From Hyaloraphidium curvatum (Eukaryota; Monoblepharomycota; Hyaloraphidiomycetes; Hyaloraphidiales; Hyaloraphidiaceae), in NCBI GenBank assembly GCA_025558095.1, contig JAIVFI010000032.1:1-64000 (forward strand): a stretch of DNA of 64,000 nt, given 5' to 3'. The notes below the pieces were generated by a model, which had not been told where the DNA came from, did not search any database, and saw only the letters and a program-made list of their open reading frames with translations. The stretch's first letter is position 1. Each line of letters begins with the position of its first letter. The position numbers and the translations under genes are program-made. Below, piece after piece: positions 3,231-51,781 of this stretch.

Positions 3231-3495
3231 GCCGCACGATCCCCTTTATTGGATCGCTTGAGACGAACTGTGAGGCTCCTGCGGCCACCGACGACGCAGT
3301 TTGCCCACCCCGGACCTCGAGAGCGGCCGCAGAAGAAGGCGCAACTTGGCGATGCGTCCCACTCCTGTTCACCGACCGGCCGGATCCGGGTGCGGAGAGG
3401 TTTCGAGGGTTGGCCGAGGGTGTGGACAACCAGAGGCTCGCGGGCGGGCGCAGCAGCATCCTCGGGGTCCAATCTCCCCCACCCCACCCAAAGCG

Positions 3496-6762: not shown

Positions 6763-7776
6763 CGGAGTGGGTGGGACGCGGGACCCAACCCGCCGACCAC
6801 CATACCCCACCGGCGGGATCGGACGGATGCAACGCCCCGGATCATCGAACGGATGGTTTTCCGGCTAGGTCATTCCGCTCGGTTGCTTCCGTCCGCGGGG
6901 CTGGAATGCGATGGGGACGCGCCATGCGGCGGCCGGGAGGCGGATCGCGGTCCGCTAGAGGAATGGAGCTGGTATCGGAGCGCTCTTGCGAGCACAGCAT
7001 CACATTCGGGGAGGGGATAAGGAACGCCCGCCGGAATCCGCGGGCGACGGCGGCCTGGAGGGGCGCTCGATCGTCAGCGGGTCCTCGGGGTCCGGGGCGG
7101 TGCCGAGCCCGGGAACGCACTGGCGAAGGACGGATCAGTCTCCGCAAACCGTGCTGGGGCACACGGCCGGGCTCTTGGCCTTGAACGACGTGGGGCCCGA
7201 GGGCTGGTGCGCGCGCAATCGCGGCAACTACGAGACCGAACCTTCCGACAATTGGGCGCGCCAGCTGGCATTGCGAAGATGCTTGCCTGCTGTCGGGACG
7301 GGATGGTACACTGGCCCGGATATGCCGGATGCGAGCAAGGAAAGTGCGCCTGCGAAGTAGCCCCGTACCCGCCTTCGCAGGCAGCCCCGCCTTCCCTTCC
7401 TTCACTTTTGGCTCGAGAAATCAAAGGATCCACTCCGGCGAATCAAGCGCCAAGGGTGCCAATTTGGTGCGCGAGTGTCTACGACGCCGGCAGTTATAGC
7501 TGGGCGCTGGTGGCGCGCTCGTCGGTCTCTCGCGGAACCGCCCTCCCTCCGTAGGCTTCGGCCGCATCGGGGACCTTCCTCGCCGTCATCCTTGTGGCGA
7601 GATCGGTGTTAGGTGCCGCATGCCCCAGGCATAGCGGCCGAGGCGCGGCAACCGCGGTTTCGGCGCCCGCGTCCCCATTTCGGCGCCCGGCCATCCCCAC
7701 GCGACTCACACACCCAAATCGACATCGGCGCCGTTTCCGCCCGTTCCCCGACGCGAACCCCGATCAAAGCACCGCG
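6763..7776. other. Intergenic, no recognised gene (about 1.0 kb)
   Basis: This stretch separates two divergently transcribed secretory genes. Several frames of 60-190 codons are open on both strands, which is expected at this base composition. None has a recognisable motif, a signal peptide or a codon pattern like the neighbours. It probably carries both promoters. No repeat or RNA gene was seen. Confidence 0.5.
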
Positions 7777-10842: not shown

Positions 10843-13800
10843 ATGGAGCCCGACGCAGGGGCCGCGGGGCCGCCGGCACCCGGTGCGCCGCCGCGGAGCG
10901 ACACGTCAGTGTGGAGCGAGGCCGAGAAGCGCTGGGTGCCGCTGGCCGAGGTGCCGACGGGGGACACATCGACAGAGACCGCGAAGGCCTCCCCGCCGGG
11001 GCACACGGCCAACGGGGCATCGGCGCCGACGGTCGGCGCATCGCCGGCCACGCCCGCGGGCCCCGCAGCGCCGCAGCGCACGTGGGGCCCCCCGCAGGCG
11101 AGCCCGCCTTCGCCCGCTTCCCCCCACAAACCCTCGCTGTACACCGGCGCCACCTTCGTCACGCGGTACCTGCCGCCCGAGGACGCCCCGCGCGAGCTGC
11201 GGCTGCACCCCGCGGACGCCGAGCTGTTCGACGAGATGATCGCCTGGCGGGCCGCGCGGCCCCACGCCGGCCTGGAGGAGTGCCTTGCCGCCTTTGCCGG
11301 CCGCACGCTGGCGCCGGACCTGCAGATATACACAAACGCAAACGCCCTGGCCCGCACCATGTACGCCCCGTTCTACCCGGACCTGGTGCTGGTCTTCGAG
11401 GCCGACGCGCTGCCCTCGCCCGAGGCCGGGAAGCGGGCCTACCTCCGCGACCGCTACGAGGACCTGATCGTCGGCATGGGCATCATCGTCGAGCGCGAGC
11501 CGCCCCGCCCGCACGCGGACCCGGCCTCGGCGCTGGCCCCGCACCGCTGGTTCGTCAAGCTGTGGATCCCGTTCGAGACCATGTGCAAGGCCGCCGAGGA
11601 GCTGATGCTGCGCATGCCGTTCGTGCCCGCGGCGTCGGTGGCCGCGGGCTTGGAGGCGGCGGGGGTGCCGTACAAGGCCACGCAGCCGTTCGAGAGGGAC
11701 CTGCTGGAGGAGTTTGTCGGGGGGAAGGCGGCCGGCGGGCGGGAGTGGGAGGTGCAGATGAGGTTTTGGGAGGGCGGATGGCGCGCCCTGGCCGGCGCGT
11801 ACCTGGTTGAGCACTTGACCATCCGGGACTACAGCCCGGACCGGCCCAAGGCCAGGCTGAACAGGCTGCTGGGCGACGGCGTCTACACCGGTTCGTTGCC
11901 TTTTCGTCGCCAACGAGACGAACCCCTTCCTTCAACTGACCCTCGCGCTGCCCCCCTCAGACTTCTACCCTCCCCACTCGGGTCCCATCAACGGCCAGGG
12001 CCCCGGCTCCTCCTCCAACGGCCTCTCCTTCCTTCCCCCACCCCCCGACGACCCCGAGGCGCCCCCGCCGTCGGCCCCCTCGACCGTCCTCGTCCCCCCG
12101 AACCCGCGCGTGGACCTGCACCGCGACTGGGCGCGGGTCAAGCTCATGTGGCGCAAGGGGTGGCGGCAGCCGCTGGACGACGTGCGCAAGTACTTTGGCG
12201 AGCGGATCGCGTGGTACTTTGCCTGGGCAGGCGGGTCTCCGCCGACCGATCCCCCGCGTGTCCGCTGACACCCCGCTTCCCCCTTGCCAGGCTTCTACAC
12301 CCTCCTCCTCATCCCCCTCTCCGCCTTTGCCTTTGTCGTCTTCATCTACGGCCTCGTCACCGCCGCCACCGGCGGCGCCTTCTCCGTCGACTTTGCCCAG
12401 GCCAACCTGACCGAGGTCGGCACGGTGATCGTCACGGGCTTCGCCGTGACGTTCGACAACGCGCTCACGCCGTGGTACGGCATCGCCCTGTGCGCGTGGG
12501 CGACGATCGCGTTCGAGTACTGGAAGCGGAGGACGTCGGCGCTCTCGTTCGCGTGGGACACGGGGGATTTCAAGCACTCGGAGGTGACGCGGCCCGAGTG
12601 GATCGGGACCAACACGCGGAGGAGCACGGTGACGGGGAGGTTCGAGCAGTACGCGCCGGACGGGGTGCAGCAGGGGCTCAGGACGCTGTCGTGGTGCCTG
12701 GTCGGGCTGTCGGTACGTGGCGTCCCCGCTGAGTTGCCTGCGTGCCGGCGCTGAACGGCCGCCTTGTTAGATCGGCGTCGTCGTCCTGGCCATCTGCGGC
12801 TTTATCGCCTTCCAGGCCTGGGCCATCCGTTCCCTCGCCGACTACCCCTTTGCCGGCACCATCCTCCCCGCCCTCCTCTCCCTGGTCTCGATCGTCGTGC
12901 TCGACGGCCTGTACAAGAAGCTCGTGGTGCCGTGGCTGCTGCAGATCGAGAACTGGAAGAAGGAGAGCGAGTACGAGAACTCGTACATCATCAAGGTGTT
13001 CCTGTTCGACTTTGTCAACCTGTACGGGTCGCTGTTCTACATCGGCGTGGTGAAGCCGTGGGTGAGCCTGACGGGGGTGTTCAACCGGGACGACTGGAAG
13101 GACACTTGCGCTTGTGGGTTTCCGTCCCTGCCGCCGAACCCTGGCCACCCGCTTACCTCCCCGCCCGGGTAGTCAACTCGTGCATGGCCGAGCTCATGAT
13201 CCAGCTCGTCGTCATCTTCCTCGCGCGGCAGTGGCTCAACTCGCTCGTCGAGTGGGTTCTCCCCCGCCTGAAGACGTGGTGGAACGAGCGCAAGGGCAAG
13301 GTGGTGCGGGACGATGACGTGGTCGAGGACGCGACGAGGGGCCAGTACATCTCGGACGCGGGGAGGATCAAGTACGAGAGGGCGGATTTGTGGGCCGACT
13401 ACACCAAGATCAGTGCGTGCTCTTTCCGGCTTGCCGAATGACCGCAGCTCACCCTGTTTCGGGCCCGCAGTCGCGCAGTACGGCTACATCTCCCTCTTCT
13501 CGGTCGCCTTCCCCCTCGCCGCGCCGCTCGCGCTCTTCAACAATCTCATCGAGATCCGCTCCGACGCCTCGCGGCTGGTGCTCATCTGCCAACGGCCGTT
13601 TTTCCGGCGGGCAAAGGACCAGGGCGTGTACGACAGCGTGCTCAGCGTCATCTCGTACATGAGTGTCATGGTCTGTCCCCGCCCGCCTGCCCCGGCCTTG
13701 GTTGTGCTGACCGTTCCCCGCCGTGCAGTTCAACGCCCTCATCATCTCCTTCTCCTCCACCGCCGTCAAGGTGTCCTACCTGGACCGGTACGGCCCGCAG

Positions 13801-23561: not shown

Positions 23562-25100
23562 TCACGCCGCCGGCACCGGACACACCGTCTCCATCGTGAA
23601 CCCCACCCCCGCGGCCCTCAAGATCGTCCACAGCGCCGCCAGCGCCGTCGCCATTGTCGCCAGCACCGTCCTCACGGTCCCGAACCCGACCGCGGACCCC
23701 CACATGCGGGTCTTGGCGGCGTCGATCTCGAGGAAGGACGAGAGCAGCGCCTCGTGCGCGCGGAGGCCGGCCATGGCGGCGGATTGGGCGGGGGAAGGGG
23801 AGGCGCGGAGGGAGGAGACGGCGAGGAGGCGCAGATCCCGCCGGGCGGAGGAATAGAGGCGGGCCAGGTCGTTGACCTGGTCGTTGCTCGTGGCGATGTT
23901 GACGAGGTCCGTGAGGACAAAGTGCACGAGGAAGAGGAAGTTGAAAATGGCCGCGAAGGGGATGCAATAGCCCCCGAGGATGTTGGAGACGGCCATGGTG
24001 CCGGGCATGAGGAACGCCATCGTGGCGAACGCCGGGGCGATGCCGACGAAGAGGTCGTACCGCCGCGCCCAGCTGCCCGCGATGGCCAGGTGGAGCTGCT
24101 GGTACGGCTCGTCGCCCAGCAGCTGCGCGGGCTCGTCAAAGTCCGAAGAAGTGAGCGCGGTACGGTACCGTGCTACGAGGTTGGCCAGGGCCGACCGCAT
24201 CGCGCGGCGCACGACGCGCCGCGAGAGGTCCAGGGAGGCGAGGTTGCCCGGGTAGCGGAGAAGGTTGTTGACACCGTACCACGCGATCGACGAGGCGACC
24301 GAGAGAGAGAAGAGGAGGGGACCCCACCACGAGGCGAAGAAGGGGCCGCGAAAGGTGATGACCGAGGTCCAGGCGACGAAGAGGTCGATGACGAGGGTGC
24401 CGGAGATCGTGCGGACGGAAAGCTCCAGCAGGTGGAGGCGGCCCGCGAGGACTGGGATGCCGCCAGAGCACCCGGGCCGCGGGCAGGGGCACAGGGTGTC
24501 CGAGGGGTCGTGCTCGAGCAGGCCCGCGGTGACTGCGGCCGGGTCGGGCGCGCCGTCCTCGGCGACCGCGGGCGTCCGCACGAGCTGCAGCCACCTCGCG
24601 ATCCCGGCCCAGATGTGGCTGCTCGCGTCCTGTTTGCCACCCCCGTCACCCAGGCCCCGCGGCCTCCGCACGGCGGGGTAGAATGTCGGGCCCAAGAAAG
24701 TCGCGAAGACCATCCCGAAGGCAAGGACGAGGCCGACCGTGCCCAGGGCCAGTTGCCGCTCGCCAAACCGGCCGTCGTTGAAGACGTACGCGCCCGCGGC
24801 GAAGCACGGCGCGAGGAAGAGGCCCATCGCGCCGCGGGGCACGGCCAATTTGGCGAGAGGGGCAAAGGCAAACTGCATCCGCGTGAGGAGCAGCGTCGGT
24901 CCCGTCCCTTTCAGCTCGTGGAGCAGCGCCACCCGCGTTAGCGGCCTCTCTGCGCGAAGTTCCGCCGCGGGGTCGGCCGAAGCGGCCTCGCCGAGGTCGT
25001 CCGCCGTCGAGAGCGGGGCGGGCACAATGGCGATCCATTCCGCGGCGCTGAAGGCGATCCGCGGGGGCAGGACGCCCGGCGACGCGTGCGTTCCGTCCAT
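23562..25100 (-). CDS. Seven-pass membrane protein family, member A (unknown function)
   Basis: 512 aa, single exon, TGA at 23562. Translation could extend to 25217 only with a GTG, so ATG 25100 is used; it puts MDGTHASPGVLPPRIAFSAAEW in register with the starts of members B and C (PLFSPAEW). About seven hydrophobic segments are visible. Between the second and third lies LEHDPSDTLCPCPRPGCSG, carrying the family motif His-x6-Cys-x-Cys-x4-Cys. Shared C-terminal landmarks are GGYCIPFA, GFGTVRTVLATMATALAALW and a terminal G-x-x-F-T-M-E-T-V-C. This is the most divergent intact member together with D. No known family was recognised from sequence alone; a receptor, channel or transporter role is inferred only from topology. 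Confidence 0.8.
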   Translation of the reverse strand: MDGTHASPGVLPPRIAFSAAEWIAIVPAPLSTADDLGEAASADPAAELRAERPLTRVALLHELKGTGPTLLLTRMQFAFAPLAKLAVPRGAMGLFLAPCFAAGAYVFNDGRFGERQLALGTVGLVLAFGMVFATFLGPTFYPAVRRPRGLGDGGGKQDASSHIWAGIARWLQLVRTPAVAEDGAPDPAAVTAGLLEHDPSDTLCPCPRPGCSGGIPVLAGRLHLLELSVRTISGTLVIDLFVAWTSVITFRGPFFASWWGPLLFSLSVASSIAWYGVNNLLRYPGNLASLDLSRRVVRRAMRSALANLVARYRTALTSSDFDEPAQLLGDEPYQQLHLAIAGSWARRYDLFVGIAPAFATMAFLMPGTMAVSNILGGYCIPFAAIFNFLFLVHFVLTDLVNIATSNDQVNDLARLYSSARRDLRLLAVSSLRASPSPAQSAAMAGLRAHEALLSSFLEIDAAKTRMWGSAVGFGTVRTVLATMATALAALWTILRAAGVGFTMETVCPVPAA

Positions 25101-25368: not shown

Positions 25369-26208
25369 CTAGGCATCATCCGGCTCCCGATCCACCCCTA
25401 TCTTCCACGCGTACTCCTCAAACATCTCCTCCGGGGTCATCCCCAACCACGGCGGGTACTGCATGAGCACCTGCATGCCCAGCTCCGCGATCGTGCCGGC
25501 CTCGTTGGCATGCGGGAACGGCACGTCCGGGACCGGTTTGCCAAGGAAGCGGCACAGGGGCTCCCAACCTTCCTGGGGTCGGAAGACGAGCAGCTGCGAG
25601 GGAGGGACGGCGGACTTGACACGCTGGATGTGGTTGAGGTGGGCCTGGATGGCTCGGGCCTGGCGGGATCGGTGCGGGGTCAGTGCCGAAAACGGGGCCG
25701 GGCGGTGCCGAAATCCCACCTTGTTCATCTTCCCGCCCTTGTCGAGCTTGAACAGCCTGCCCACGCTGTTCCCGCCGTGGTCGAACGCCGTGATGGGGTG
25801 GTCCGGCACCGCCTTCCACGCGTCCCGCTGCAGCCGCCACGTGTTTATCGGCGCGATCCCGTTCGCGTAGGATTTCCACCACGAGTCCATGTCGTCGCGC
25901 ACGGTCAGGATGACCTTGGCGTGGGGCAGCTGCGCCCACGCGTCCTCGAACGCGAAGCCCATGTCCACGAGGGCATCGTACCCCTCGAACGCGCCGAAAT
26001 CGATGTGCTTCCCCGCCGCGGCGGCCGTGAGCAGCTCCTGGTTGTGCGGGTACGTCTGGCCGAATTCGCCCAGCCCGGGGACGACGGTGCCCGGCGGGAA
26101 GCACGCGGTGTAGCTGTGGTGCGATCTGAAGCCCAGGATCTCGAGGGCTACGTGGAGGGAGAGCGTGCCGGTGCGGTGAAATCCCGCTCCGAGGATCGTG
26201 AGGGGCAT
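25369..26208 (-). CDS. Fungal-type P-loop sulfotransferase-family protein
   Basis: Exons 25720-26208 and 25369-25659, 259 aa. ATG 26208 is preferred over 26274 because MPLTILGAGFHRTGTLSLH is the canonical start of this cytosolic family; the upstream 22 residues look like leader sequence. The 60-nt intron (25660-25719, GTGGGA donor, CTGAC branch) is stop-free. The phosphosulfate-binding loop is GAGFHRTGTLSL and the 3'-phosphate-site block is VILTVRDDMDSWWKSY. YDALVDMGFAFEDAWAQLP is the typical intervening region, and LLVFRPQEGWEPLCRFLGK is the C-terminal block. Such proteins (Sulfotransfer_4/NAD-dependent epimerase-annotated in fungi) have mostly unknown acceptors. It sits between the two hydrolase paralogues, next to membrane protein A. 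Confidence 0.8.
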   Translation of the reverse strand: MPLTILGAGFHRTGTLSLHVALEILGFRSHHSYTACFPPGTVVPGLGEFGQTYPHNQELLTAAAAGKHIDFGAFEGYDALVDMGFAFEDAWAQLPHAKVILTVRDDMDSWWKSYANGIAPINTWRLQRDAWKAVPDHPITAFDHGGNSVGRLFKLDKGGKMNKVGFRHRPAPFSALTPHRSRQARAIQAHLNHIQRVKSAVPPSQLLVFRPQEGWEPLCRFLGKPVPDVPFPHANEAGTIAELGMQVLMQYPPWLGMTPEEMFEEYAWKIGVDREPDDA

Positions 26209-26536
26209 TCTGGCGTTGCACGGGCCAAGGGGAACGGCGTTGGGGACCTGTGTCCCCCACGAAGCGCGGAACATTCTCCGAACCCCTCGGCGGAAGCTCC
26301 AGATTCCCCCCCGAAGCTTCTAAAGCGCGTTCTAGGTTATCAAGATACTATTCTGTCGATGGATAATTGTGGAGGAATCCGCGGGCAGGACCCCCCCCGG
26401 TGGATGGGGGACACTCCCTTTCTCCATACACGGCAATACCCATTCACGCGTGTAGGACTTGACCTTCGAAACTGCGCCTTCTGTGCTCGGCTGGGCCCCC
26501 GCCTTCCAGGCGCGACCTGTTTCCGCACCTGCAACC

Positions 26537-37375: not shown

Positions 37376-38968
37376 ATGGAGACCGACGCCCGGGATCCCC
37401 CCGCCGACCGGGTTCCGACCGCGCCTCGGCCGCTCTTTTCTCCTGCAGAATGGCTCTGCCTGTTGCCGGCGGCGCGGGAACCCCAAACGCGCGTGTCGAC
37501 GCTGGCGGCGCTGCTCCCGACCAACCCGGATCCCGCGGCGGCACTGCGGACCGCGAAGCCGCTGACCCCCGCGGAAATGAGGCACGCGATGGAAGTCGAC
37601 GGAGGCGCTCTGCTCCGCGCGGCGCTGACGTGGCAGCTCCGGATGTCCGAGCTCGGACGCGCGACTTTCGCCCTCGTGACCGTCTCGACGATGGCGGCGC
37701 TGGTGCCGCTCACTGCCGCCATGGTGCTCTGCGACACCGGCGGCGAGTACTCCCCGGCCAGCCAGGCAGTGGGACTCGCGGGCGTCTGGGCCCTCTGGGG
37801 CATTGCTTTCGTCCAGATCTGGGCCGGCGTGCACAAGTTCGTCGTCGACCGGTACTATCGGGCTATCAAGTCCGGCGAAGAGGAAGAAAGGGACGCCGAG
37901 GGACAGTTGCCGGCGGCACAGGACCTTTCCCGGCACCCTTTTGCGACCATGGCGAGGTGGCTCCAGTTGGTCGGGTCGGACGGCGCACCGCCGAGTTCCC
38001 CCGGATCGATCCTCCTGGCGGAAAGCCACCGCACGGGAGGAAGCGGGCTCGTATCGCACAGGGAAGGCAACGCCGACTGCCCCTGCTTCGCCTGCGCGCG
38101 CCCCCTCGTTCCTCTTGCGGGCCAGCTCCGCGCCCTCGAGTTCGCCGCCCGCGCGGCATTTGTCTTCGCCTCCGTCGTCTTTTCCACCCCTGCGCTGCTC
38201 AGCTATCCTGCAACCGTGTGGACCACCTGGTGGACGGCGCTCGCGGCGGCGGTGTTCCTGGCGGCGCTGGGATTCAGCGGGCTGCTGTTTGCGGGGACCA
38301 GGGTGCCGACCAACCTGGCCCTGCTGGACCTGGAGTCCCGCCTGCACCGCCGCGCGCTGCTCCTGGCCCTGCGCGAGTTCCTGGACCGGTACGGCCGGGC
38401 GGTCTCTGAGGGCAGCGGGGCGGAGGGGCCGGCAGCACCCGCCGACGAAACCTACGTCGTCCTGTTCCGATCCCTCGTCTCGGTCTGGAAAGACCGCTTC
38501 CCCGCCCTCCTCACCGGCACGGCCGTCGTCACGCGCCTCCTCGTGATCCCCGCCGCCGCCGCCGTCGCCTGCATCGCCGCCGGCTCGTGCGTGCCCCTCT
38601 GGACCGTCGTCGTCCTGGCCTCGTGCTTCGTGCTTCTCCTCGTGGACCTGGTCAACCACGCCGCGGCAAACGCGCAGATCGGCGGCTGCGTTGCGCTGCT
38701 GGGCCTCGCCCGCGCCGAAGCCCGGGAGCTCCTCGCCTCCTCCGCCTCGCGCCCGGGGCCCGCGAGGGAAGCCCTCGCGCAGCACGCGGAACTGATGGCG
38801 GCGCTGGCGGGGTCGGCGGGCAGCGGCGCGCGGCTGTTTGGGGCCGTGGTGAGCTACGGCGTGGTGAGGGCCGCGGCGGCGACGGTGTTCACCGTGGCGA
38901 TCGGGCTGTGGGGGGTGCTGAGGGGGACGGGGGTGAGGGTGGAGATTGCGGTGGCGTGCGCGGCGTGA
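37376..38968 (+). CDS. Seven-pass membrane protein family, member B (unknown function)
   Basis: 530 aa, single exon, ATG 37376. The N-terminal 75 residues are soluble and contain PLFSPAEWLCLLPAAREPQ. Hydrophobic segments follow near residues 95-122, 128-150, 242-268, 283-305, 378-402, 405-425 and 480-505, seven in all. The loop after the second carries MARWLQLVG and HREGNADCPCFAC, the family motif His-x6-Cys-x-Cys-x2-Cys. Later landmarks are AAGSCVPLW between segments 5 and 6, an Ala/Glu-rich helix before segment 7, and a C-terminal RVEIAVAC. Member C at 42.7-44.3 kb is very similar throughout, A and D much less so. No known family was recognised. Topology with the last helix at the extreme C-terminus recalls 7TM receptor/channel proteins, which is only a hypothesis. 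Confidence 0.85.
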   Translation: METDARDPPADRVPTAPRPLFSPAEWLCLLPAAREPQTRVSTLAALLPTNPDPAAALRTAKPLTPAEMRHAMEVDGGALLRAALTWQLRMSELGRATFALVTVSTMAALVPLTAAMVLCDTGGEYSPASQAVGLAGVWALWGIAFVQIWAGVHKFVVDRYYRAIKSGEEEERDAEGQLPAAQDLSRHPFATMARWLQLVGSDGAPPSSPGSILLAESHRTGGSGLVSHREGNADCPCFACARPLVPLAGQLRALEFAARAAFVFASVVFSTPALLSYPATVWTTWWTALAAAVFLAALGFSGLLFAGTRVPTNLALLDLESRLHRRALLLALREFLDRYGRAVSEGSGAEGPAAPADETYVVLFRSLVSVWKDRFPALLTGTAVVTRLLVIPAAAAVACIAAGSCVPLWTVVVLASCFVLLLVDLVNHAAANAQIGGCVALLGLARAEARELLASSASRPGPAREALAQHAELMAALAGSAGSGARLFGAVVSYGVVRAAAATVFTVAIGLWGVLRGTGVRVEIAVACAA

Positions 38969-39282
38969 TGGACCGGGACGGGCTGCCTTCACTCGGCCGG
39001 GGTGCCTCCGGGCGTGAGTGACATCAACCTATGCTGCTGGACAGTTGGACGGATTCGTGGAGGTGCGAAGGGTGCGCCGCGACCGAGCGCTGTACGCAGA
39101 GCACGTTGCTATAGAGCTCGTCCTCGCTGGATAGGCAGCCGGCTGGAGGACCGATGCCGATGACCGGGGATCGCTGGGTTGCCAACGGCGCCTTTACCAA
39201 GCACCACCGTACACATCCACGGAATGACCAATCCATGCCGATCCCCAGACGAAGCCCAGATCCAATGCCACCCCCCTGCGCC

Positions 39283-40646
39283 TCAGAACGCCTCGGGCCC
39301 GGGCGTCGCCCGCGCCTTGAGCGCGCGCCTGTATCCCTGGTCGGCGAACGCGCGCGCGACCAGCTCGCGCCGCCCCAGGCGGACCGTGGTGATTTCCTGC
39401 GCGCGGGGCGGTCAGCTCGCATGCACGCACGCGCATCGGGATCGGCTCACCGTCGTGGAAACCTCGAAGAAGTCGCCGCCGCCAGGGGGCGCGGGCGGCT
39501 GCCCGCTGGCGTCGGCCTTGAACACCAGGGCGCCGGACTGCCCCTCGATCTGCACGGCGTACGTCTCGCCCGGGTTGAGGTTGGTCGGGAGGCGGATGGT
39601 GCAGCGGCCGTCGGCCAGGGTGATGCACTGCCCGAGGATGACGGTCTGACGGGCGCCGAGGCGGCGGGTGGGGCCGTTGAGGACGACGAGGGCGCCGGAG
39701 CGGGGGGTGTCCGGGGGGTTCTGGTAGATGCCGTCGCCGGCAACGTCTGGAGGAGGCGGGGGAGGGGGTGAGCGGGGCCGGCGGGGGAGCGATGGGGAGG
39801 CGCACCGTTGAAGGCAAACACGGGGATGACCACCGCCGCCGGCTGCGTGACCGTCCTTGTGACCGTCTTGGTGGTCGTCTTGACCGTCGTCGTCTTTATC
39901 CTCGTCGTGGTCTTTGTGCGGGTGCGGTACGACGTGACCTTGGTCAGCCTGCAGCACCGCCTCGTGTTGCCCGAGCCGCTGGCGGCGGGCACGACGCCCT
40001 GCGGGCAGTAGCCGCAGACGCCCGTGCGCTGCTCCTGCCGGGCATACAGGTTGTGCTCGTCGCCGTCGGGGGCCGTGAAGTCTTCCGTCTCGTCGGGGAA
40101 CGACCTCTCGTTGAATGGCTCCTCCACCACCTCCTCGGCCGGGCTCTCGGCGGCGGCGGGCTCGGGTTCGGGCAGATCCCGCTCCAGCACTTGCGCGGAG
40201 GGTGCCTGCTCAACCTCCGCAAAGGGCGCCTCCCCATCGCGGGCTTCGAGCCGGCGCCGGTTGAGAGACGTGGTCGTGACGGTTCGGGTGACTGTTCTCG
40301 TGCGCTTGAGTGTCTTGACTGCCGTGCGCGTCCTGTACTTTGTGGAGATGACCGTCCTGCTCTTTGGGCAGCAGCAGCCGCCGCCCCAGCCGTTGTTGTT
40401 GCTGCCATCGGTGCCCGCGGGTGAGTCCTTATCGCGGGGGACCGGCGTGGGCTGCCCACCAGGTCGGCGCCTTGACCCAGACGAGCGAGGGCGTGTTGGG
40501 GCTGACGCCCTGCGCGGCCGCGGGCAGCGCGGCGGCCAGCGCGGCGGCGGCGCCGAGGAGCGCGAGCAGAGTCGCCGGGAGGACCTGTCGGCGGCGGGCG
40601 GTGTCAGCGGGGCGCGGCGGCCGCCGGCGCGCGGGCGCACCTTCAT
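39283..40646 (-). CDS. Secreted Thr/Arg-rich wall-like protein with a beta-rich C-terminal domain
   Basis: Five exons (minus): 40641-40646, 40460-40584, 39806-40401, 39451-39746, 39283-39396; 378 aa, frame exact. The first coding exon is only ATG AAG; splicing to the next exon creates a proper signal peptide (MKVLPATLLALLGAAAALAA). The mature protein has a CCCPKSRT stretch and two Thr/Arg/Lys-rich tracts (RTRTVTRTVTTTS, TTTRIKTTTVKTTTKTVTRT) separated by an acidic region and a CGYCPQG motif. The C-terminal part (GDGIYQNPPDTPRSGALVV, then CITLADGRCTIRLP and TYAVQIEG) looks like an immunoglobulin-like or Cna-B-like beta domain. Thr-rich tracts of this kind are typical of glycosylated fungal surface proteins. 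No named family. Confidence 0.65.
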
Positions 40647-41260
40647 CGCGGCAGATCGCGTCCGGCGCGAGTGCGATGCGGCGGCGGGACGCTGTGGGCC
40701 CCCGGGCACAGCGCTTTTCATGAGTCCCTCTGCGGGCGGCTGACGAGGAACGTCAGGCAGGGGGACTGCCGCACCTCAGCCCCATGACCTAACCCACCGC
40801 CCCGTGGCCGACGAGGTCCGCGACAGGCCCGGCGCTCGTCGGTGATCACCCTGCGAAATGTTCCGTCCATTTCCGGCGCGATTCGCTTCCCCCGGGCCGC
40901 CGAAGCGAGCACGGTGCTTTGGCGGGTCCTCCCCCAGCCGCCATGCAACTTTCCAAGGGGCGGCTTCCGCCGGTGCACGGGCAGCATCGGCACCACGGGT
41001 TCTGTGATCTGGTCCGAGCCATCACCTTGCATTCGTTCTCAGTGTTTTCCGAAGCAAAGCAGTGGGTTGGCGCGGGAAGGGCGCACACAGCGCTTGCGAT
41101 GCGGAGGTGGAAGAACCCGTTTCCCGCCCGCGTCTGATTGCGAACCAATCCCTGTTGGGTTTGATCAGGAATGACACAGCCAATCAGGTGATCTATGAAG
41201 CACGGACGCCATCGTCAGGCGCAAGATCTAGTGCCGCGAACACCATCCCCCTTCCCTCCT
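40647..41260. other. Intergenic, no recognised gene (614 bp)
   Basis: Lies between the start of the Thr/Arg-rich secreted protein gene and the 3' end of the orphan gene at 41261-42214. Only unsupported open frames of about 70-110 codons are present. No repeat, tRNA or mobile element was recognised. It should contain the promoter of the secreted protein gene. Confidence 0.4.
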
Positions 41261-42214
41261 TCACGCCGCCGCCGCCACCACCGGCACCGGCACCGCGACG
41301 ACCGTCGGCCCTTTGCCCTTGCTCAGCAGCGCCAGCTCCTTGTCCAACACCGCGTCCTGTCTGGCCAGCCACGCCGCGACCCCCGGCCACCCCATCGCCC
41401 CGCGCACCTCCGCGGCCCCCCTCTCGACAGCCGGATCCACGCGCAGGGATCCGGGATCGATCGTCCGCCCCCTATCATCGTCTTCCAGGGCCGCCGTGAT
41501 GGCACCCCTGCCGCCGAACGCCTCCCTCGCGAACCGCTCGGCCTCCCTCCTCCACCCGTCCACGCTCCTCACGGCCGACTTGAGCGCACCCAGCAGCACC
41601 CCCATGTCCGTCGTCCGGACGGTGTTCAGGTACGCCCTCCTGATCAGCTTCGCCTGCCTCTTCTGCTCCCCCGGGTCCGCCGACGCGAGCCACCCGTTGG
41701 CCAGGCACCTGTCCACCGCCCGCGAGAGCAGCAGCACCTCCGCCAGATCCCTCCACACCCCCGTGAACGCCGTCAGCAACGCCACCATCTTCCTGATGGG
41801 GAACAGCAGCAGGGCGAGGGGCAACCCCGCCACCGCCCCGCAGCACCTCCTCGCCACCCCCCCGGCCACCGACCCGCACAGCACCGCCACGATCGCCCCG
41901 GAAGGCTGCCTCCCGTGCGCCCTCCACGTCCGCGCGACGGCAGTCCTGAGCGCGCGGTGCTTGATCGCCCGGTCGGCCATGGGGACGGGGACGAACCGCG
42001 AGGCGGCGGCGGCGAGGGCGCACAGCGCCCATTCGCGCTGCAGGCGGGAGCTGACGGTCATTCCCGGGGCGGGGGAGGGCTCGGTGGAGGCGGAGGTGGA
42101 GGAGGGAGGGCGCGCGGGGTCGTCGGAGGGCGGGGCGAGCGACGGCGCGGGGGCCTCGGAGCCGCGGGTCGAGACGGCGGTGGAGGCCAGGGGGCAGCTT
42201 TCGGTGCTCGTCAT
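41261..42214 (-). CDS. Orphan protein with a central hydrophobic region
   Basis: 317 aa, single exon, ATG 42214, TGA 41261; a longer reading would need a GTG. The first 55 residues are a Ser/Pro/Ala-rich disordered head. Then comes WALCALAAAASRFVPVPMAD, a basic helix (RALRTAVARTWRAHG) and a hydrophobic region (AIVAVLCGSVAGG, AGLPLALLLFPIRKMVALL). The rest is helical and charged, ending in a short Val/Pro/Ala tail. The R-F-V-P-V-P element followed by a basic helix reminds me of uncharacterised bacterial membrane-associated proteins, but I cannot name the family. It lies between a secreted wall-like protein and membrane protein C. Function unknown. Confidence 0.55.
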   Translation of the reverse strand: MTSTESCPLASTAVSTRGSEAPAPSLAPPSDDPARPPSSTSASTEPSPAPGMTVSSRLQREWALCALAAAASRFVPVPMADRAIKHRALRTAVARTWRAHGRQPSGAIVAVLCGSVAGGVARRCCGAVAGLPLALLLFPIRKMVALLTAFTGVWRDLAEVLLLSRAVDRCLANGWLASADPGEQKRQAKLIRRAYLNTVRTTDMGVLLGALKSAVRSVDGWRREAERFAREAFGGRGAITAALEDDDRGRTIDPGSLRVDPAVERGAAEVRGAMGWPGVAAWLARQDAVLDKELALLSKGKGPTVVAVPVPVVAAAA

Positions 42215-42727
42215 TTTGTTGGTCTTGGGCACGGAATCGCTCGGCTTGAGCCCGTTCGGGTGTTTGGGTGCACGAAGGAGATGGTGACGTGGCCCTACGG
42301 TCTGTCCGCTGCGTCGATATGTTGACGCTGCCCGAAACCGCGCAGGCAGCCTTTCTGAGGGCTGGACAACTCCAAGATTCGCAAGGGAAGAAGCAACGTG
42401 GCCGAAATGGAGTGCGGCTTCCGCCCGCGGATGCCGCAGACAGGGGCTTTCGAGCGGCTCAACGTGCCGACGCTTTTGGGGCTAGCGACCGAAGAAGATC
42501 AGAATCGCAGGAGGCACCAATTTGACGATCGGACAGCGGAAGACAACAGTCGAGAGGGGTACCAATCGGGATAGGGCTTGCGTCGCGGCACGGGATAAGT
42601 CATTGACCAAACGCCCCACGGCCAGCAATACGTCCCATCGCACATCATCATTGATTTCGTTGATTCTGCCAAAAACCGACTGAATGGGAGCGGTCAGTCA
42701 CGCGCGACATGTATCAAAACCAGCCCA
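42215..42727. other. Intergenic, no recognised gene (513 bp)
   Basis: Separates the start of the orphan gene from the 3' end of membrane protein C (both minus strand). The segment 42560-42720 is visibly richer in A+T than its surroundings. No open frame with recognisable content or repeat was found. Confidence 0.4.
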
Positions 42728-44335
42728 TCACGCCGCGCACGCCACCGCGATCTCCACCCGCACCCCCGTTCCCCTCAACACCCCCCACAGGCCGATTGCC
42801 ACGGTGAGCACCGTCGCTGCGGCAGCCCTCACCACGCCGTAGCTCACCACGGCGCCGAAGAACCGCGCGCCGCTGCCCGCCGAGCCCGCCAGCGCTGCCA
42901 TGAGCTCCGCGTGCTGCGCGAGGGCTTCCCTTGCCGGCCCCGGGCGGGAGGCGGAGGCGGCGAGGAGCTCCCGGGCCTCGGCGCGGGCGAGGCCGAGCAG
43001 CGAGACGCAGCCCCCGATCTGCGCGTTGGCTGCAGCGTGGTTGACCAGATCCATGACGAGGAGCACGAAGCAGGCGGCCAGGACAAGGATGATCCAAAGG
43101 GGCACGCATGAGCCCGCGGCGACGCACGCGACGGCGGCGGCAACGGGGATCACCACGTTGCGCGAGAGGAAGGCGGTCCCCGTGAGGAGCGCCGGGAAGC
43201 GGTCCTTCCAGACCGAGACGAGGGAGCGGAACAGCGCGACGTAAATCTCGTCGGCCGGTGCCGCTAGTTCAGAGATGATGGCTGCTTCGGACGCCTCACT
43301 CGTCCCGCCACCCGCCGAGACCACGCGAGCGTACCGGTCCAGAAACTCCCGAAGGGCCAGGAGCAGCGCACGACGGTGTAGCCGCGACTCGAGGTCAAGC
43401 AGCGCAAGGTTGGTCGGCACCCTGGCGGCCGGGCTCACCAACAAGCCCATGGCCAGTGGCAGCAGGAACATCACGGCGGCAATGGCCGTCCAGGGTGTGG
43501 TCCAAAGTGCCACGGGGTAGCTGAGAAGGGCCGGCGCAGAGACGACAATGTAGGAGAGGGCAAAGGCGTAGCGCACGGTGAACTCCATAACGCGCAGTAT
43601 CCCGGCCAGGGGAACCAGAGATCGGGCGCAGGCGAAACAGGAGCAGTCCCGGTCACCATCTACGTGGGAGACGAGCCCGACACCTTTTGTGCTCTCCACC
43701 CGAACGGTCGATCCCGCGTCGCTGGGGGCTTTCTCCGCGCCGAAAAGCTGGAGCCACCTCGCCATCGTCGCGAAAGGGTGTCGCGACAGGTCCTGTGTTG
43801 CTGGCAGCTGCTTTGGACCCCTTTCGTCGTCGTTCTTGCGGATCTTCCCTCGGTAGTAGCCCTGCACGATGAGTTGGTTCAGGCCCGCCCAGACTTGGGC
43901 AAAGACCGCGCCCCAGAATGCCCAGATAGCCGCAAGGCCTACGCCCAGACTCGCTGTAGGATATCGTCCGCTGGTGTTGAAGAGTACCATCGCCGCCGTG
44001 AGCGCGGCAAGAGCCGCCGTCGAGAGGACTGTCATCGGCAAGAGGGTAACGCGTCCGACCTCCGAAATCCGAAGCTGCCAGGTCAACGCGGCCCTGAGCA
44101 GTGCACCGCCGTCCACGTCCAGCGCATTCCTCATTTCCGCCGGGGTCAGCGGCCTCGCGGTCCGCAGCGCCGCCGCGGGATCCGAGTTCGTTGGAACCAG
44201 CGCCGCGAAGGTCGACACGCGCGTTTGAGGTTCCCGCGCCGCCGGCAGTAAGCAGAGCCATTCCGCGGGAGAAAAGAGCGGCTGCGACGCGGTTGGGACG
44301 GGCTCGGCGGAGGAAACCCCGCCGTCGTCGTCCAT
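42728..44335 (-). CDS. Seven-pass membrane protein family, member C (unknown function)
   Basis: 535 aa, single exon, ATG 44335. Nearly the same protein as member B over its whole length: PLFSPAEWLCLLPAAREPQ at the start, DLSRHPFATMARWLQL before the Cys motif, HVDGDRDCSCFAC as the His-x6-Cys-x-Cys-x2-Cys motif, AAGSCVPLW and NHAAANAQIGGC around segment 6, and RVEIAVAC at the end. Differences from B cluster in the first two hydrophobic segments and in the loop around residues 340-355, where C has an 8-9-residue insertion. It is head-to-head with member D, starts 322 bp apart. Function unknown; see member B. Confidence 0.85.
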   Translation of the reverse strand: MDDDGGVSSAEPVPTASQPLFSPAEWLCLLPAAREPQTRVSTFAALVPTNSDPAAALRTARPLTPAEMRNALDVDGGALLRAALTWQLRISEVGRVTLLPMTVLSTAALAALTAAMVLFNTSGRYPTASLGVGLAAIWAFWGAVFAQVWAGLNQLIVQGYYRGKIRKNDDERGPKQLPATQDLSRHPFATMARWLQLFGAEKAPSDAGSTVRVESTKGVGLVSHVDGDRDCSCFACARSLVPLAGILRVMEFTVRYAFALSYIVVSAPALLSYPVALWTTPWTAIAAVMFLLPLAMGLLVSPAARVPTNLALLDLESRLHRRALLLALREFLDRYARVVSAGGGTSEASEAAIISELAAPADEIYVALFRSLVSVWKDRFPALLTGTAFLSRNVVIPVAAAVACVAAGSCVPLWIILVLAACFVLLVMDLVNHAAANAQIGGCVSLLGLARAEARELLAASASRPGPAREALAQHAELMAALAGSAGSGARFFGAVVSYGVVRAAAATVLTVAIGLWGVLRGTGVRVEIAVACAA

Positions 44336-44657
44336 TGTCTCCTAGCCTGCTGAAATTGACAACGCGGCGGCAAATACTGCCCTGTCCTCCCCCGGGCTAC
44401 GGACCGCTCGCTGTGCCAGCGCTGGACGTGAAGCTCGTGAGGCAACGAGATTCCAGGGAAGCAGGCAGTTTCCGTGGAAGCTGGGAAAGGGCAAGTCGAA
44501 TCCCGGAAACAGGCAGACGACTCGTGTCGCTTCGTGGAGCACGGAGCTCTGTTTCAACGGGATCTGGCCCAATTGTCCTTGGATACCGAGCACAGTTCTG
44601 CTGCGATACCTCGGGATTCACCGCGATTTCCGCCCACGGAGTGGCCCGCTGTCGAGA
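44336..44657. promoter_or_regulatory. Shared divergent upstream region of membrane proteins C and D (322 bp)
   Basis: The start codons of members C (minus) and D (plus) face away from this 322-bp segment, which carries no supported gene. It is probably a bidirectional promoter, and would allow joint expression or mutually exclusive choice of the two paralogues. No specific binding site was identified. Confidence 0.5.
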
Positions 44658-46224
44658 ATGACTCCGGAGACTTTTACCGACATCGAGGCCCCCAGCAACG
44701 GACTCCCGGCATCCTACGATGGTGCAGAATGGCTGGCCCTGTTCCCTCACCCCGACGGCGCGCCCCCTCCGTCGCCCCTCGCCACCGCGGCGTCGCCCGC
44801 CGTCCCTCGCGGCCCGTTTCCGGCGCTATGGGCCGCAGAACCCCTGCCGATGGCCGAGCTGGTGCGGATCGTGCGGAACATCTCACCGTTTCATGGCGCC
44901 ATCGTCAGGTTTCAGGCCACGACAGCGGGGTGGGCCGCGCGAGTGCTGTTCCGGAACGGGCTCGTCGCTGTTAGCGTGCTTTCCGCCGCTCTGCTTGGCA
45001 TCTGGTTCTATCTCGAGACGGGCCTGTCGCAGCGGATTGTGGGCACCGTGACCGTCCTTCTGGAGCACCTGGCGCCTATGGTCGCTGTGGCCATCAACTC
45101 GGAATCAATCTCCGCGGGCCTCGGCGCCGCCGGAAACGCCGAAGACCAGAACTGGAACCCGCTCGCCGTCCTATATCGGTACCGCATGTTACAGTTGCGC
45201 GCCACAGATGGGAAACCGTGCCCCCTTCTCGAGCATCGCGACATGGATTCGCACTGTCCGTGCCCTGGGCCGAACTGCGCCGGTCCCGTACTCTTTCCGG
45301 CGTCAGCCTTGGGCTGGCACCACCTGATAGCAGCGACCTTGTTTGGATTCAGCAAAGCAATGGTGTCGTGGACGGCTCTAGTCACGTTTGGCGCCGCCTT
45401 CTGGCCGACGCCGTACGGCGCCATTCTTGGCATCGGTTGCGGTACGTTTCCCGCACTCGCCTTGCGTCCCACCTTAACAGCCGTCTCCAGTGCTTTTCAC
45501 CGCCAACGTCGCCATCTTCAGCTACGTCCCCTGGCTCTACAGCCAGAATCCCAAGCTCGGGTGCCTGCAGCAGCGCCTCCGGTACCGAGCTTCGATGCTA
45601 GCCCTGTCATCACTCCTTTCTGCCGCGCAGCATGATCTCCTCGGCGAGAGAGCGGATGGAAAACGGGAACGACTCACCCGCGGCGACGGCCAGCTCGAGC
45701 TGGTCCTGCACGACTCGCTCGCCGCTTCCTGGAAGTACGATTTCAACAGCCTCACAAGCTGGGCTTCAGTGTTTGGCCTTAATGTGGTTGTAACGGCCAT
45801 CGCCATCGTGGCCAACATGGCCGCCGGATCGTGCGTGCCCGCGTACCCGATCGCCACCCTCGTCTACGTTGTGTTCGTTTTTGCGCACAACCTCGTCCTC
45901 CTGGCGTCGTACAACTCGGACGTCGACGTTATCTCGGAGCTCTATGGCTCCACCGCCTCCCTTCTCTCGCGGCTCCTTGCCTCCGCCGCCGCCCAGCCCA
46001 ACACGGACCCCGCCTCCCTGCGGCGGTGGCAGGCGCGCCTCGAGGCCCTACGCCCGCTCGCGGACGGCGAACAGCTGCGGGCGCGGTTCCTCGGCACCGA
46101 GATCGGGTACGGCGCGCTCCGGGCGGTGGCGGCGACAGCGTTCACGGCAGCAGTGGGCATGTTTGGGATCTTCAGGCCGCTGGGGATCAGGGTGACGATG
46201 GACGTCGCGTGTGTGGTTGGCTGA
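44658..46224 (+). CDS. Seven-pass membrane protein family, member D (unknown function)
   Basis: Exons 44658-45435 and 45491-46224, 503 aa; the 55-nt intron (GTTGCG donor) is the only intron among the four intact members. The family frame is kept: SYDGAEWLALFPHP at the start, then seven hydrophobic segments, HRDMDSHCPCPGPNC (His-x6-Cys-x-Cys-x4-Cys, the longer spacing as in member A), AAGSCVPAYPIATL, and IGYGALRAVAATAFTAAVG leading to RVTMDVAC at the C-terminus. Sequence identity to B and C is low outside these landmarks. The relic at 505-780 is closest to this member. Function unknown. Confidence 0.85.
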
Positions 46225-47932: not shown

Positions 47933-49252
47933 CGTCGTTCGGCGACGAGGTGTCTGAACGGTGCGGTGAAGTGCAGGTTGCGGTGTGGCGGGACAGTGTT
48001 TGGGTGAGCGTCGGTGGCTCCGGGAGACATACGAGACTGCGGTAGAGAACGAGTGGAAATCTCATCACGGGCACTATGTCGCGGACAAGGGCTGGATCTA
48101 ATAGCTTCTTCGGTCTCATGTGTCCCGACGCATCAAGGCGAGATGAAAACATCTTTGAGATTGTGCGGGTCGCCGCTTCAGGACGCGGTGCGACGGCCGT
48201 CTGCAGAAATGCGGTGCGCCGGACTAGTATACTTTTCGCTCCCGTTGCCTCTAAATTGATTTCGATGTCGAGGTGATGTGGTTTATTGTCGTGCGCCTCT
48301 GATCGATCGATCGGTGCGAACGACAACACGTACCGTGTGACCACCCTCCCGCCAAAATGCCCCCGCTTGCGACGTCGTACCGCCGCGTTGCAGCACGAGA
48401 AGAGCAGATTCAACGCTCCGATACCCCGAACCGGCCGCCCGGGAACGAGGGCATCCCCATCGGCGCGCCCGCCCGACCCCCTCCTCCCCCTCCCCGCCCC
48501 TCCCCGCGCGGCCCCGCTGTGCCGGACTGCTTCCACGACACACACCCGAGAGCCGGGCACGTCTTGCAACTTCGTCAGTCGCCGGGCGGCTTGCGGTAGC
48601 CGGTGGCGCGACGGGCCGATGCCGTCACTGGTGCGAGTCTGGGCCAGACCGGCTATCAGGCGGCAGCGAACGGAGGAAAGATCGAGGCCGCAAGAATGGA
48701 CACGGCGAGCGCGAACGCCTTCCAAACGACCCGAGGTGCCGCAGCAGGACCGGGGAGGGTCGCCCGGTGCCCCCCGTATGCATGGGACTTGGCGCCCCGA
48801 TGGTGCCTAAGCGGAACCCGCCCGACGTTTCCGAGCACGGCAGCTGCAGCAGATGTTTCCGGACTCATCTGTGGATAGGATGGACGGCAATCGATGATCG
48901 TCTCGGACCTGTTTGCACGGCGGCCCTTTGGGCAGCTCGACTTGATGCAACCTGGAAACTCGGAATCTCACCAGCCCAAACTTAACGGCCATCCGGAGCT
49001 CGCACGCGGCGGACCGCTTGCGCCCCTTCTTCAACTGGTCTTTTGCTCGGCATGATCTCTGTGCGGCTGCGGAACCTCGACACTTGCGGCCTCTATTCGG
49101 AGGTGCACTTTCAAACTGGACCCCGGCCTTCTTTTTTCAGGCGATCGGGCGGCCGTGCGGGCCGCTTGGGAGGATCCCCCGACAGGAATCGCGCCGCCCA
49201 CTTGATTTCCGAGCGACTGGGTCCCGCTTCCCCGAAACCCGCGCCGACCGGA
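47933..49252. other. Long divergent upstream region, no recognised gene (1.3 kb)
   Basis: Lies between the start codons of the acyl-CoA dehydrogenase (minus) and the Zn2Cys6 regulator (plus). Open frames of up to about 280 codons exist on both strands but show no domains, signal peptides or conserved motifs, and they overlap each other. Local base composition is mixed, with A+T-richer patches around 48050-48300. It likely holds both promoters and 5' leaders; transcription factor genes often have long upstream regions. Confidence 0.45.
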
Positions 49253-51781
49253 ATGCCGATGGCGGCGCCGGAGTCTGTCGCCGGTGGCCCAACCCGCGGA
49301 CGCGGCCTGCGGGCCTCCTGCAGCGGTTGCTATGAATCGAAAAAGCAGTGCGACACGCCGGGGCCTCCGGAGAAATGCCGGCGCTGCGTGCGGTTGAACC
49401 TCGATTGTGTCTTTCTCGAGCGCCTCAAGCCCGGGCCCAAGGGCGGTCGTCGCGACGGGCGCGGCAGGCGGCGACGCAAGGGCCGCCACTCCTCCTCCGG
49501 CTCGGCCTCGGACGACATCGATGACGACGATGTTTCGACGCCGATCGACGACCGGCCACCGGTGCTCCCAATCGCGGGGCCCGGTCGGCGCGCCCGCATG
49601 GCCTCGGACGTCGGCGGCGCCCGCCCTGAGCTTCCTCTACTGTCTCGCGCGGTCTCGCTGCCCTTTGCCGCGCCGGAGCCTCCGCCACATGCCTTCTCTA
49701 TGTCTCTTCCGCCCGTCAGGCTCTCGCACAGCATGCAGCTGCCGCCCGCCCCCTATCCCCACTACTTTGCCCACGACCCCGCCGCTGGCACAATGCCGCC
49801 GGCCGCGCTGATGTCGCCAGGCTACTCCGGCGCGATGTACGCCCCGCCCATGGACGGCCAGGTCTATATGCCGGTCGCTGATCCCGCCCTGGGCTGGGCC
49901 GGCGGTTTCCACCCTGCCGCCGCCTATGGCGACCCGAACCTGGGCTCCCCGTTCACCCCTCCCTACCCGCACAGCCCGGCCCCCATACCGCGGCCGATCG
50001 CCGCCGGCCCGCCGCTCCCTGACTCGGACACCCTCAACCTGATCATGTCCTCGTACCTCGGCCCGCTGTACTACACCTTTCCCCTCCCGATCAGGTCGGA
50101 GCTCGTCTCCGGACTCTCGGACGGCACCGTGCCAGAGTACCTCGCCTGCTCGGTGATGTTTTGGGCCCTTTGGTACGGCAGGGATCTGCCCGACGTTCTC
50201 GGCGAAAGCGGGCGCCGCACGGCGTGCTCGCAGTTGTTTGCCCGTGCGACCGTCGGAATCGGGCCTGATCTCGATAGGACGTTGACCGGTTACGACGCAC
50301 TCTTTCCCCCCGGATCAGCGCAGGACGGGTACCGTGCAGCGGCCCTGCAAGAGTACCGGCGCACCGCCGTGAGCGTCTGCATGGCCCTGAACTTCCTCGT
50401 CTCCGTGGCAGCCGGCTTCGGCACCCCGAACGGCGAACCGCACACCGACCTCCACGCGCTGCTATCCCTGGCCTTCCGCGCCGCTCGCGCCGCAAAACTC
50501 AACTCCGAGTCCGCCTACGCGGAGCAACACCCCTCCGCCGCATCGCCTTTCTCCGCCGCCGACCCTTTGATCGAGCATGGCCGCCGCACGTGGTGGTTCC
50601 TCGCCTGTGCCTCCTGGACGGCCTCGGCAATGCACGGCACCTCCCCCGACGGCGGCCCCGCCGGGATAGGCGAATGCGGCGGTGTGGGGATGTACCTCAC
50701 CCCCGGCGAGTACGAGACGGTACGGTCGGGCCGCAACGGAGACAGCCCTCCCGGGCCGCGCGCGCCTGAGCTCCCCGCCGCGGTGCCGTCGCCCTCGATC
50801 GAGCCGGGGAGCCTGTACGCGCTCTCGCCGCAGAGCGAGGGGATGATCCAGGAGCTGGTGCGCAAGCGCGGATCGGTGCCGCGCGCGGGGAGCAGTGGGA
50901 CGATCGGGGGCCTGGCGCCGCGGGCTGAGGCGGGCGGGCACCACGAGGTGCGGCCGAGCAGCGAGCCGTTCGCACCGGCGGCGTCGTGGACGAAGCTGGT
51001 GATGCTGATCGGGCGGATCGCGGCGTTCCGTGCGGGAAGACAGAGGCCGTACGAGACGGAGGACGGGCAGCGGGACGCGCTCCTGGCCGAACTCGGGGGA
51101 TGGTATGCGGACCTGCCCGATGGGGTAAAGGAGCTGGACGTGGCGTTCTTGAGGAGGCCGAAGTGCGGCCTAGAGAAGGAAGGCTCTGAGGCGGACGCGT
51201 GGAGGACTGTGCTCGGCTACGTGTGGGTTTGGATCCCACTCGTGCCGCCACACTTGCAGACCACATGCTGACCAACCTTTGACGCGCCAGGATGTGGCTC
51301 ATTACCTTCCATACCGCGCACGTGCTCCTTTCGAGCCCCGCCGACAGCGGCGCCGCGGCTGCGGAGCTCGACTTCGACTGGCTCGCCAGCCCGGCCTTCC
51401 TCGCGGCGCAGGAGCACGCTATCCGCGCGTCGGCGCTGCTCAAGCAGCTCCTCGACACGAGGCTCAAGATGGAGCTCATGTCGCTCCCGGTAGGCCCCTT
51501 GCTCCTGCCGAGGCGATCCGCAGATCTGACCTCGCCGCCCTGCCTCGCAGTTCTTCCAGTACTGCGCCGTCCGCACCGGGCTCGTCCACCTGGCCTACCA
51601 CCGCTTCGCCTCGGCGGCCTCGGTGCTGCACCTCGACGCGGCGGACCAGCAGCCGGCGGACTACGCCACGCTCGTCGGCGAGGCGGCGAGGCAGCTCGAC
51701 CTGCACACCGCGGCGCTGGTGGCGGGGCTTGGCGGAGGAGGAGGATGGTGGTACGGGATTTGGACCGCGGCCTTGGGCTGA
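49253..51781 (+). CDS. Zn(II)2Cys6 fungal transcription factor
   Basis: Exons 49253-51222, 51291-51489, 51551-51781; 799 aa, frame exact. ATG 49253 is chosen because the zinc cluster follows within about 25 residues; an in-frame ATG at 49052 would add an unusual leader. The cluster is CSGCYESKKQCDTPGPPEKC followed by RRCVRLNLDC, i.e. C-x2-C-x6-C-x8-C-x2-C-x6-C, then a basic linker (GRRDGRGRRRRKGR). A long Pro/Ala/Tyr-rich middle part leads to a fungal-specific regulatory domain (SSYLGPLYYTFPLP, CSVMFWALWYGRDLP, HGRRTWWFLACASWTASAMHG). Such regulators bind DNA as dimers at CGG-type sites and control metabolism. The target genes cannot be told; the divergent acyl-CoA dehydrogenase is a candidate. 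Confidence 0.9.

Follow-up and report, generated by a model that had tools for sequence, protein, structure and literature searches.

The window analysed here is a stretch of 64,000 nt (positions 1 to 64,000 of contig JAIVFI010000032.1) from Hyaloraphidium curvatum, which NCBI taxonomy places in the Monoblepharomycota and which the available part of PMC8371127 describes as an atypical non-flagellated fungus. It contains four genes, A to D, that encode membrane proteins of a single family (Table 1). A first-pass annotation made from the DNA letters had reported four intact genes, and all four are present with the features by which they were grouped. In every translation a His is followed by six residues and then by CxCx2C or CxCx4C; the G-S/Y-C-V/I-P turn precedes hydrophobic segment 6, and a conserved Cys stands close to the C-terminus. 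The low identity noted between A, D and the B/C pair also held on alignment: B and C are 72% identical, and every other pair shares 25-27%. H. curvatum appears to carry roughly two hundred genes of this family.

Table 1. Positions of the four family genes and their conserved sites in the window
Feature	Position	Strand	Description	Basis
Gene A	23562..25100	-	512 aa	translation, family matches, structure model
A His-x6-Cys-x-Cys-x4-Cys motif	24468..24512	-	HDPSDTLCPCPRPGC, residues 197-211	translation
A GYCIP turn with invariant Cys	23958..23972	-	short loop between segments 5 and 6	alignment
A conserved C-terminal Cys	23580..23582	-	residue 507	translation
Gene B (P0001)	37376..38968	+	530 aa, intronless	
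B motif	38057..38095	+	HREGNADCPCFAC, residues 228-240	translation; invariance by alignment and held-out genes
B GSCVP turn	38582..38596	+	Cys405	alignment
B segment 7	38843..38920	+	about residues 490-515, within the most conserved part of the family	hydropathy, regional conservation
B conserved C-terminal Cys	38957..38959	+	Cys528	alignment
Gene C (P0002)	42728..44335	-	535 aa; 72% identity to B	
C motif	43628..43666	-	HVDGDRDCSCFAC, residues 224-236	translation
C GSCVP turn with invariant Cys	43100..43114	-		translation
C conserved C-terminal Cys	42737..42739	-	residue 533	translation
Gene D	44658..46224	+	two exons; 505 aa after intron removal	
D intron	45442..45490	+	49 nt, spliceosomal type, GT..CTTAAC..AG	inferred from frame and splice signals
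D motif	45234..45278	+	HRDMDSHCPCPGPNC, residues 193-207	translation
D GSCVP turn with invariant Cys	45826..45840	+		translation
D conserved C-terminal Cys	46210..46212	+	residue 502	translation

Merging the matches of seven protein queries against the organism's own genome (31.9 Mb in 55 contigs; G000 in the coordinates below) gave at least 203 loci on 41 contigs, with the best 48-86 of 683-756 first-look candidates scored for each query. This count includes some partial copies and is a lower bound, because window gene D was absent from all seven match lists. The local expansion proposed in the first-pass annotation is therefore part of something wider: there is an expansion, and it is moderately clustered (31 neighbour gaps below 10 kb against 13.3 expected, for the 198 places on contigs of known length), but with about 200 places spread over the genome, a purely local expansion was rejected. 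Among the same 198 places, 87 lay within 100 kb of a contig end where 54 were expected; the excess was weaker within 50 kb (38 against 27 expected) and no longer clear within 20 kb (13 against 10.8).

For alignment, 78 regions were fetched: 77 from the family and one contig end. A single uninterrupted match of full or nearly full length was obtained in 69 of the 77, and these, together with window genes A, B and C, form a 72-protein alignment. The other eight (L009, L042, L046, L053, L058, L067, L079 and L085) were excluded because their match was split or shortened by an intron or an in-frame stop, or was itself incomplete. Adding gene D and the first half of the database protein P0003 yielded a set of 74 members, and a profile (A1) was built from 65 of the 72 after exclusion of seven with uncertain N-terminal ends. 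The 72 proteins span 417-569 aa, 59 of them 481-539 aa, with some start codons uncertain.

Median pairwise identity among the 74 aligned members was 28%, and only 33 of 2701 pairs were at least 50% identical, so the expansion is mostly old. The ratio of nonsynonymous to synonymous substitution rates (dN/dS), taken from 15 closer pairs, ranged by region from 0.16 to 0.44. These values indicate that the genes are kept by selection, and purifying selection acts on them. Numerous dispersed copies that cluster and are over-represented in the outermost 100 kb of contigs could also belong to a variant surface or self/non-self family, whose diversity would serve antigenic or allorecognition variation. 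We consider this highly improbable, as a dN/dS below 1 in every region argues against antigen-type variation, the scarcity of close pairs speaks against a recent burst, and the predicted outer loops, of only about 5-15 residues, would leave little exposed surface. A mobile element or antigen-type family was likewise considered and set aside.

The family had been called undescribed-looking, and no named sequence family in Pfam, or in the PDB searched by sequence, matches it convincingly. Five window pieces searched against Pfam at E <= 10 returned a single chance row, DUF7393, at E 0.15 and under its cut-off. With 65 members at E <= 0.1, Pfam gave only five stray families, the commonest being GlfT2_domain3 in two members (best E 0.0084); at that threshold no member matched DUF3537 (PF12056) or 7tm_7 (PF08395), which we take to be the gustatory receptor (GR) profile. 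Scans of the genome with the 7tm_7 and DUF3537 profiles gave no match, but neither did any control, so these scans carry no weight. When the P0001 sequence and profile A1 were compared with PDB sequences, only rows at E 0.3 and above appeared. Among the matches listed from the protein database, by a search that requires shared five-residue words, there were only window and H. curvatum proteins, and the eight family records returned for H. curvatum are all named only 'hypothetical protein'. In the open-licence literature on Hyaloraphidium, on seven-transmembrane ion channels (7TMICs) and on fungal gustatory receptors, no title or abstract start among those listed describes this family.

Averaging hydropathy over the 72 paralogues resolved five hydrophobic blocks, at about residues 108-113, 134-146, 262-301, 385-422 and 503-515 in the numbering of B. 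The third and fourth are nearly 40 residues long, and we read each as two segments (hairpins 3-4 and 5-6), which makes seven in all, as the first-pass annotation had estimated; the two AlphaFold2 models that we obtained both place segments 3/4 and 5/6 in separate helices. With boundaries set by us, loops on the side of the N-terminus measure about 94, 81 and 68 residues, and links on the opposite side 15, 5 and 5, plus the C-terminal tail. Within these boundaries, helix flanks carry 11.8 Arg/Lys on the N-terminal side against 3.9 on the other, with the N-terminal side higher in 71 of 72 proteins, although this charge-bias test is partly confounded by the very short outer loops. This excess predicts that the N-terminus lies inside (N-in), and hence a family with longer inner than outer loops. 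According to the available part of PMC7746228, an intracellular N-terminus, longer inner loops and a length of about 350-500 aa are criteria for GR-like proteins.

Conservation is uneven along the chain: identity across the family is 45.5% in segment 7 and the tail (segment 7 consensus TxxTVxVGLWSxLRG) and about 21% in segments 1-2 and 3-4. The strictest conservation in the family is that of a set of His and Cys residues. In B numbering, His228, Cys235, Cys237, Cys240, Arg326, Cys405 and Gly489 occur in all 74 aligned members and Cys528 in 73, and every other alignment column has Cys in at most 14 of 72. A held-out set comprised nine genes from eight hand-picked regions among the 123 merged places that the first query had missed; the His and all five Cys were kept in 9/9, and Arg326 and Gly489 were each lost once. 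One of these regions, on contig C12, gave two of the nine genes. They correspond to the two halves of P0003: the first half already belongs to the set of 74, and the second was taken from the database sequence of that protein. Retention of the His and three Cys in 74/74 members at a median identity of 28%, and again in the nine held-out genes, means that the motif is not due to chance.

The spacing of the motif is slightly looser than the invariant His-x6-Cys-x-Cys-x(2,4)-Cys first described. The residues themselves are universal in the aligned set and six residues separate His from Cys in A to D, but across the family this spacing is near-universal rather than strict. The pattern matched 71 of 72 proteins, with six residues in 68 and seven in two; in L038 an extra Cys gives a parse of four, which by eye is six. 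L011 escaped the pattern, yet its His and Cys align.

A metal site or a disulfide knot had been proposed for these residues, and the predicted topology helps to narrow the choice. The His-Cys3 motif falls on the N-terminal, cytosolic side, which favours a metal, and the three Cys and the His probably hold a metal ion. Cys405 and Cys528 are predicted to face outwards, where a disulfide is favoured, and their pairing as a single bond would fit. In the model of P0005, the blocks at residues 191-210 (H193, C200, C202, C207) reach a predicted local confidence (pLDDT) of 82-84 against a mean of 64. It is general knowledge that CxC pairs may take part in redox chemistry and that palmitoylation is frequent on Cys near membranes; the three motif Cys might instead form disulfides or be palmitoylated, giving a redox or lipid-anchored loop rather than a metal site. 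We judge this unlikely, because it leaves the invariant His at near-fixed spacing unexplained and the loop is predicted to lie in the reducing cytosol.

The fold was assessed with template-free AlphaFold2 models of gene A (model 1) and of P0005, with 50 rows listed per model, so that families not listed are not thereby ruled out. The first-pass annotation had likened the layout to gustatory receptors, and for the better model this found support: ranks 1-16 of the structural comparison were all insect GR or odorant receptor (OR) entries, at 6-11% identity, and the top seven Foldseek matches were Gr43a and BmGr9. No listed GPCR (G protein-coupled receptor) or transporter row reached the chain coverage of the GR/OR rows. 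We describe the GR/OR fold as predicted, with weaker support from gene A.

Insect GRs (Gr43a, BmGr9) and ORs (MhOr5, AaegOR10, AgamOR28) resemble the family in predicted fold over nearly the whole chain. They share with it the N-in topology, long inner helix extensions and a split helix 7, as well as a conserved helix 7, divergent helices 1-4 and a large gene family. Unlike them, the family has a segment 2-3 loop of about 94 residues with an invariant His-Cys3, a conserved outer Cys pair, and Arg or Lys at both ends of segment 7 (positions 498 and 516) in 72 of 72 proteins. The animal GR motif of transmembrane segment 7 (TM7), TYhhhhhQF, is also lacking, as family segment 7 shares at most a Thr with it. 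Because neither the 7tm_7 profile nor the TM7 motif was found, we do not file the family as an animal-type GR.

Parallels also come from the gustatory receptor-like proteins (GRLs) of unicellular eukaryotes, which, in the part of PMC7746228 available, include one candidate each from the chytrids Spizellomyces punctatus and S. palustris. As described there, GRLs have seven segments, an N-in topology, and long inner and short outer loops, and occur in early-diverging fungi, all likewise true or predicted of the present family; fungal GRLs keep only one of the four TM7-motif positions. The chytrid GRLs are single per species against about 200 places here, a comparison made by description rather than by sequence, and that part of the paper does not mention a His-Cys3 motif for them. 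PMC9998090 counts the DUF3537 proteins of plants among the 7TMICs, along with Ors, Grs and GRLs, and states that fungal GRLs were known only from chytrids, which fell outside its structural survey; on the wider superfamily, PMC11526382 refers to Himmel et al. 2023. We place the H. curvatum family within the 7TMIC superfamily on its predicted fold and topology, and apart from animal-type GRs.

We put at about 60% the probability that the family of these four genes, a very large one in H. curvatum, has the 7TMIC fold and topology and works as a ligand-gated channel with a metal site and a disulfide. As a membrane protein with an intracellular N-terminus, each member would bind its ligand in a pocket made by segments 1-4, where divergence is greatest. 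Long inward extensions of the later helices would build an anchor domain joining subunits, probably as a tetramer, and the highly conserved helix 7b would line a pore opened by an outside ligand. These roles follow an analogy with GRs, where the pore is lined by helix 7b, the anchor is built from the inner helix extensions and the pocket from helices 1-6 (PMC11100771), and the family's conservation map agrees with it. Two features would be particular to this family. On the cytosolic side, the His-Cys3 site in the segment 2-3 loop may bind Zn(II) or another soft metal and pin the loop to the anchor, with a Zn-type knuckle stiffening this long loop beside it. On the outer side, a disulfide from Cys405 in loop 5-6 to Cys528 just after helix 7 would clamp the pore helix. 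Channel activity and ligand sensing, like the tetramer, the metal and the disulfide, are what we infer from this predicted architecture.

Several observations weigh against this reading. Foldseek E-values for the Gr43a and BmGr9 matches are weak. With the gene A model, the first GR in Foldseek appears only at rank 28, unrelated helical proteins head the structural-comparison list, and the motif blocks have a pLDDT of only 45-53. That list, the count of seven segments and the fact that large receptor families are usual among GPCRs could point to seven-helix receptors or transporters of an unrelated family, GPCR-like or other. Such an assignment has in our view a very slim chance, given the chain coverage of the GR/OR rows and a predicted N-in topology opposite to that of GPCRs; a GPCR topology, with its extracellular N-terminus, was set aside on that ground.

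The remaining objections concern function, on which the fold evidence says nothing. The strictest conservation in the family is in its His and Cys set, which is not a typical channel signature, and the basic residues at both ends of segment 7 differ from the insect pore motif. A protein of the same fold gated by something other than an external ligand would accommodate these points: an intracellular-membrane or metabotropic member, for instance a protein of the endoplasmic reticulum or vacuole or a metal- or redox-regulated leak channel, with His-Cys3 as the real sensor (of Zn, Cu or redox state). We regard this as the foremost of the alternatives and still an unlikely one, as the sensing of a metal, being one task, does not call for some 200 divergent paralogues, and segments 1-4 diverge most, as expected if there are many ligands.

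Public gene models for the family are unreliable, and several are truncated or fused. That of P0003 (G000:C12:983-4094) joins two tandem paralogues, those of P0007-P0009 (333-369 aa) look truncated, and that of P0006 (G000:C16:668690-670183) carries Pfam PF13563/PF07823 behind the family C-terminus; these we take to be 2H phosphoesterase-type names. In contrast to the uninterrupted members of the 72-protein alignment, L009, L053 and L067 have, by eye, an intron in common immediately before the GxC turn, which suggests one old intron with repeated loss, and L042 has a plausible intron just after the turn. L079 (G000:C37:205500-208200) is probably a pseudogene, since its segment 6 is broken by an in-frame TAG and splice signals were not seen by eye. 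Two places, G000:C30:69253-70374 and G000:C48:24802-25923, have equal score and identity to one query, a sign that the assembly may include a contig twice or in an alternate version.

Long open frames in high-GC DNA (67.7% for the window) raised a bacterial origin, which was set aside because gene D has an intron and the window also holds an anoctamin and a fungal Zn2Cys6 domain. The anoctamin-like exons (12269-13169, +) are those of an ordinary gene for a calcium-activated channel or scramblase, and the Zn2Cys6 domain, barely over its cut-off (21.5 against 21 bits), lies in a 761-aa open frame (48986-51268, +). Two sulfotransferase-type genes and a GT61-type glycosyltransferase (3274-4743, +; 25372-26319, -; 5152-6864, -) lie within about 23 kb.

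The scale of the family (about 200 places) and its two-sided Cys arrangement go further than the first-pass annotation described. More tentatively, and at somewhat short of even odds, this unicellular fungus may have an insect-size repertoire of about 200 or more GR-like channels with an architecture of their own, in which a cytosolic metal knuckle is coupled to the anchor domain and a disulfide on the outside fixes the pore helix in place. Through the metal site, such channels might respond to cellular zinc or redox state in addition to external ligands, and the invariant basic residues at two positions of helix 7 hint at a pore permeable to anions. A repertoire of about 200 would be, to our knowledge, the largest known outside animals. 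The His-Cys3 site and the outer Cys pair yield direct, testable predictions on assembly and gating, and hundreds of diverged sequences are at hand for mapping pocket, anchor and pore. If about 200 such genes do serve a free-living fungus in this way, the fold has given rise to large repertoires of receptor channels beyond the animals as well, and H. curvatum would offer a natural experiment in what the superfamily senses without neurons.

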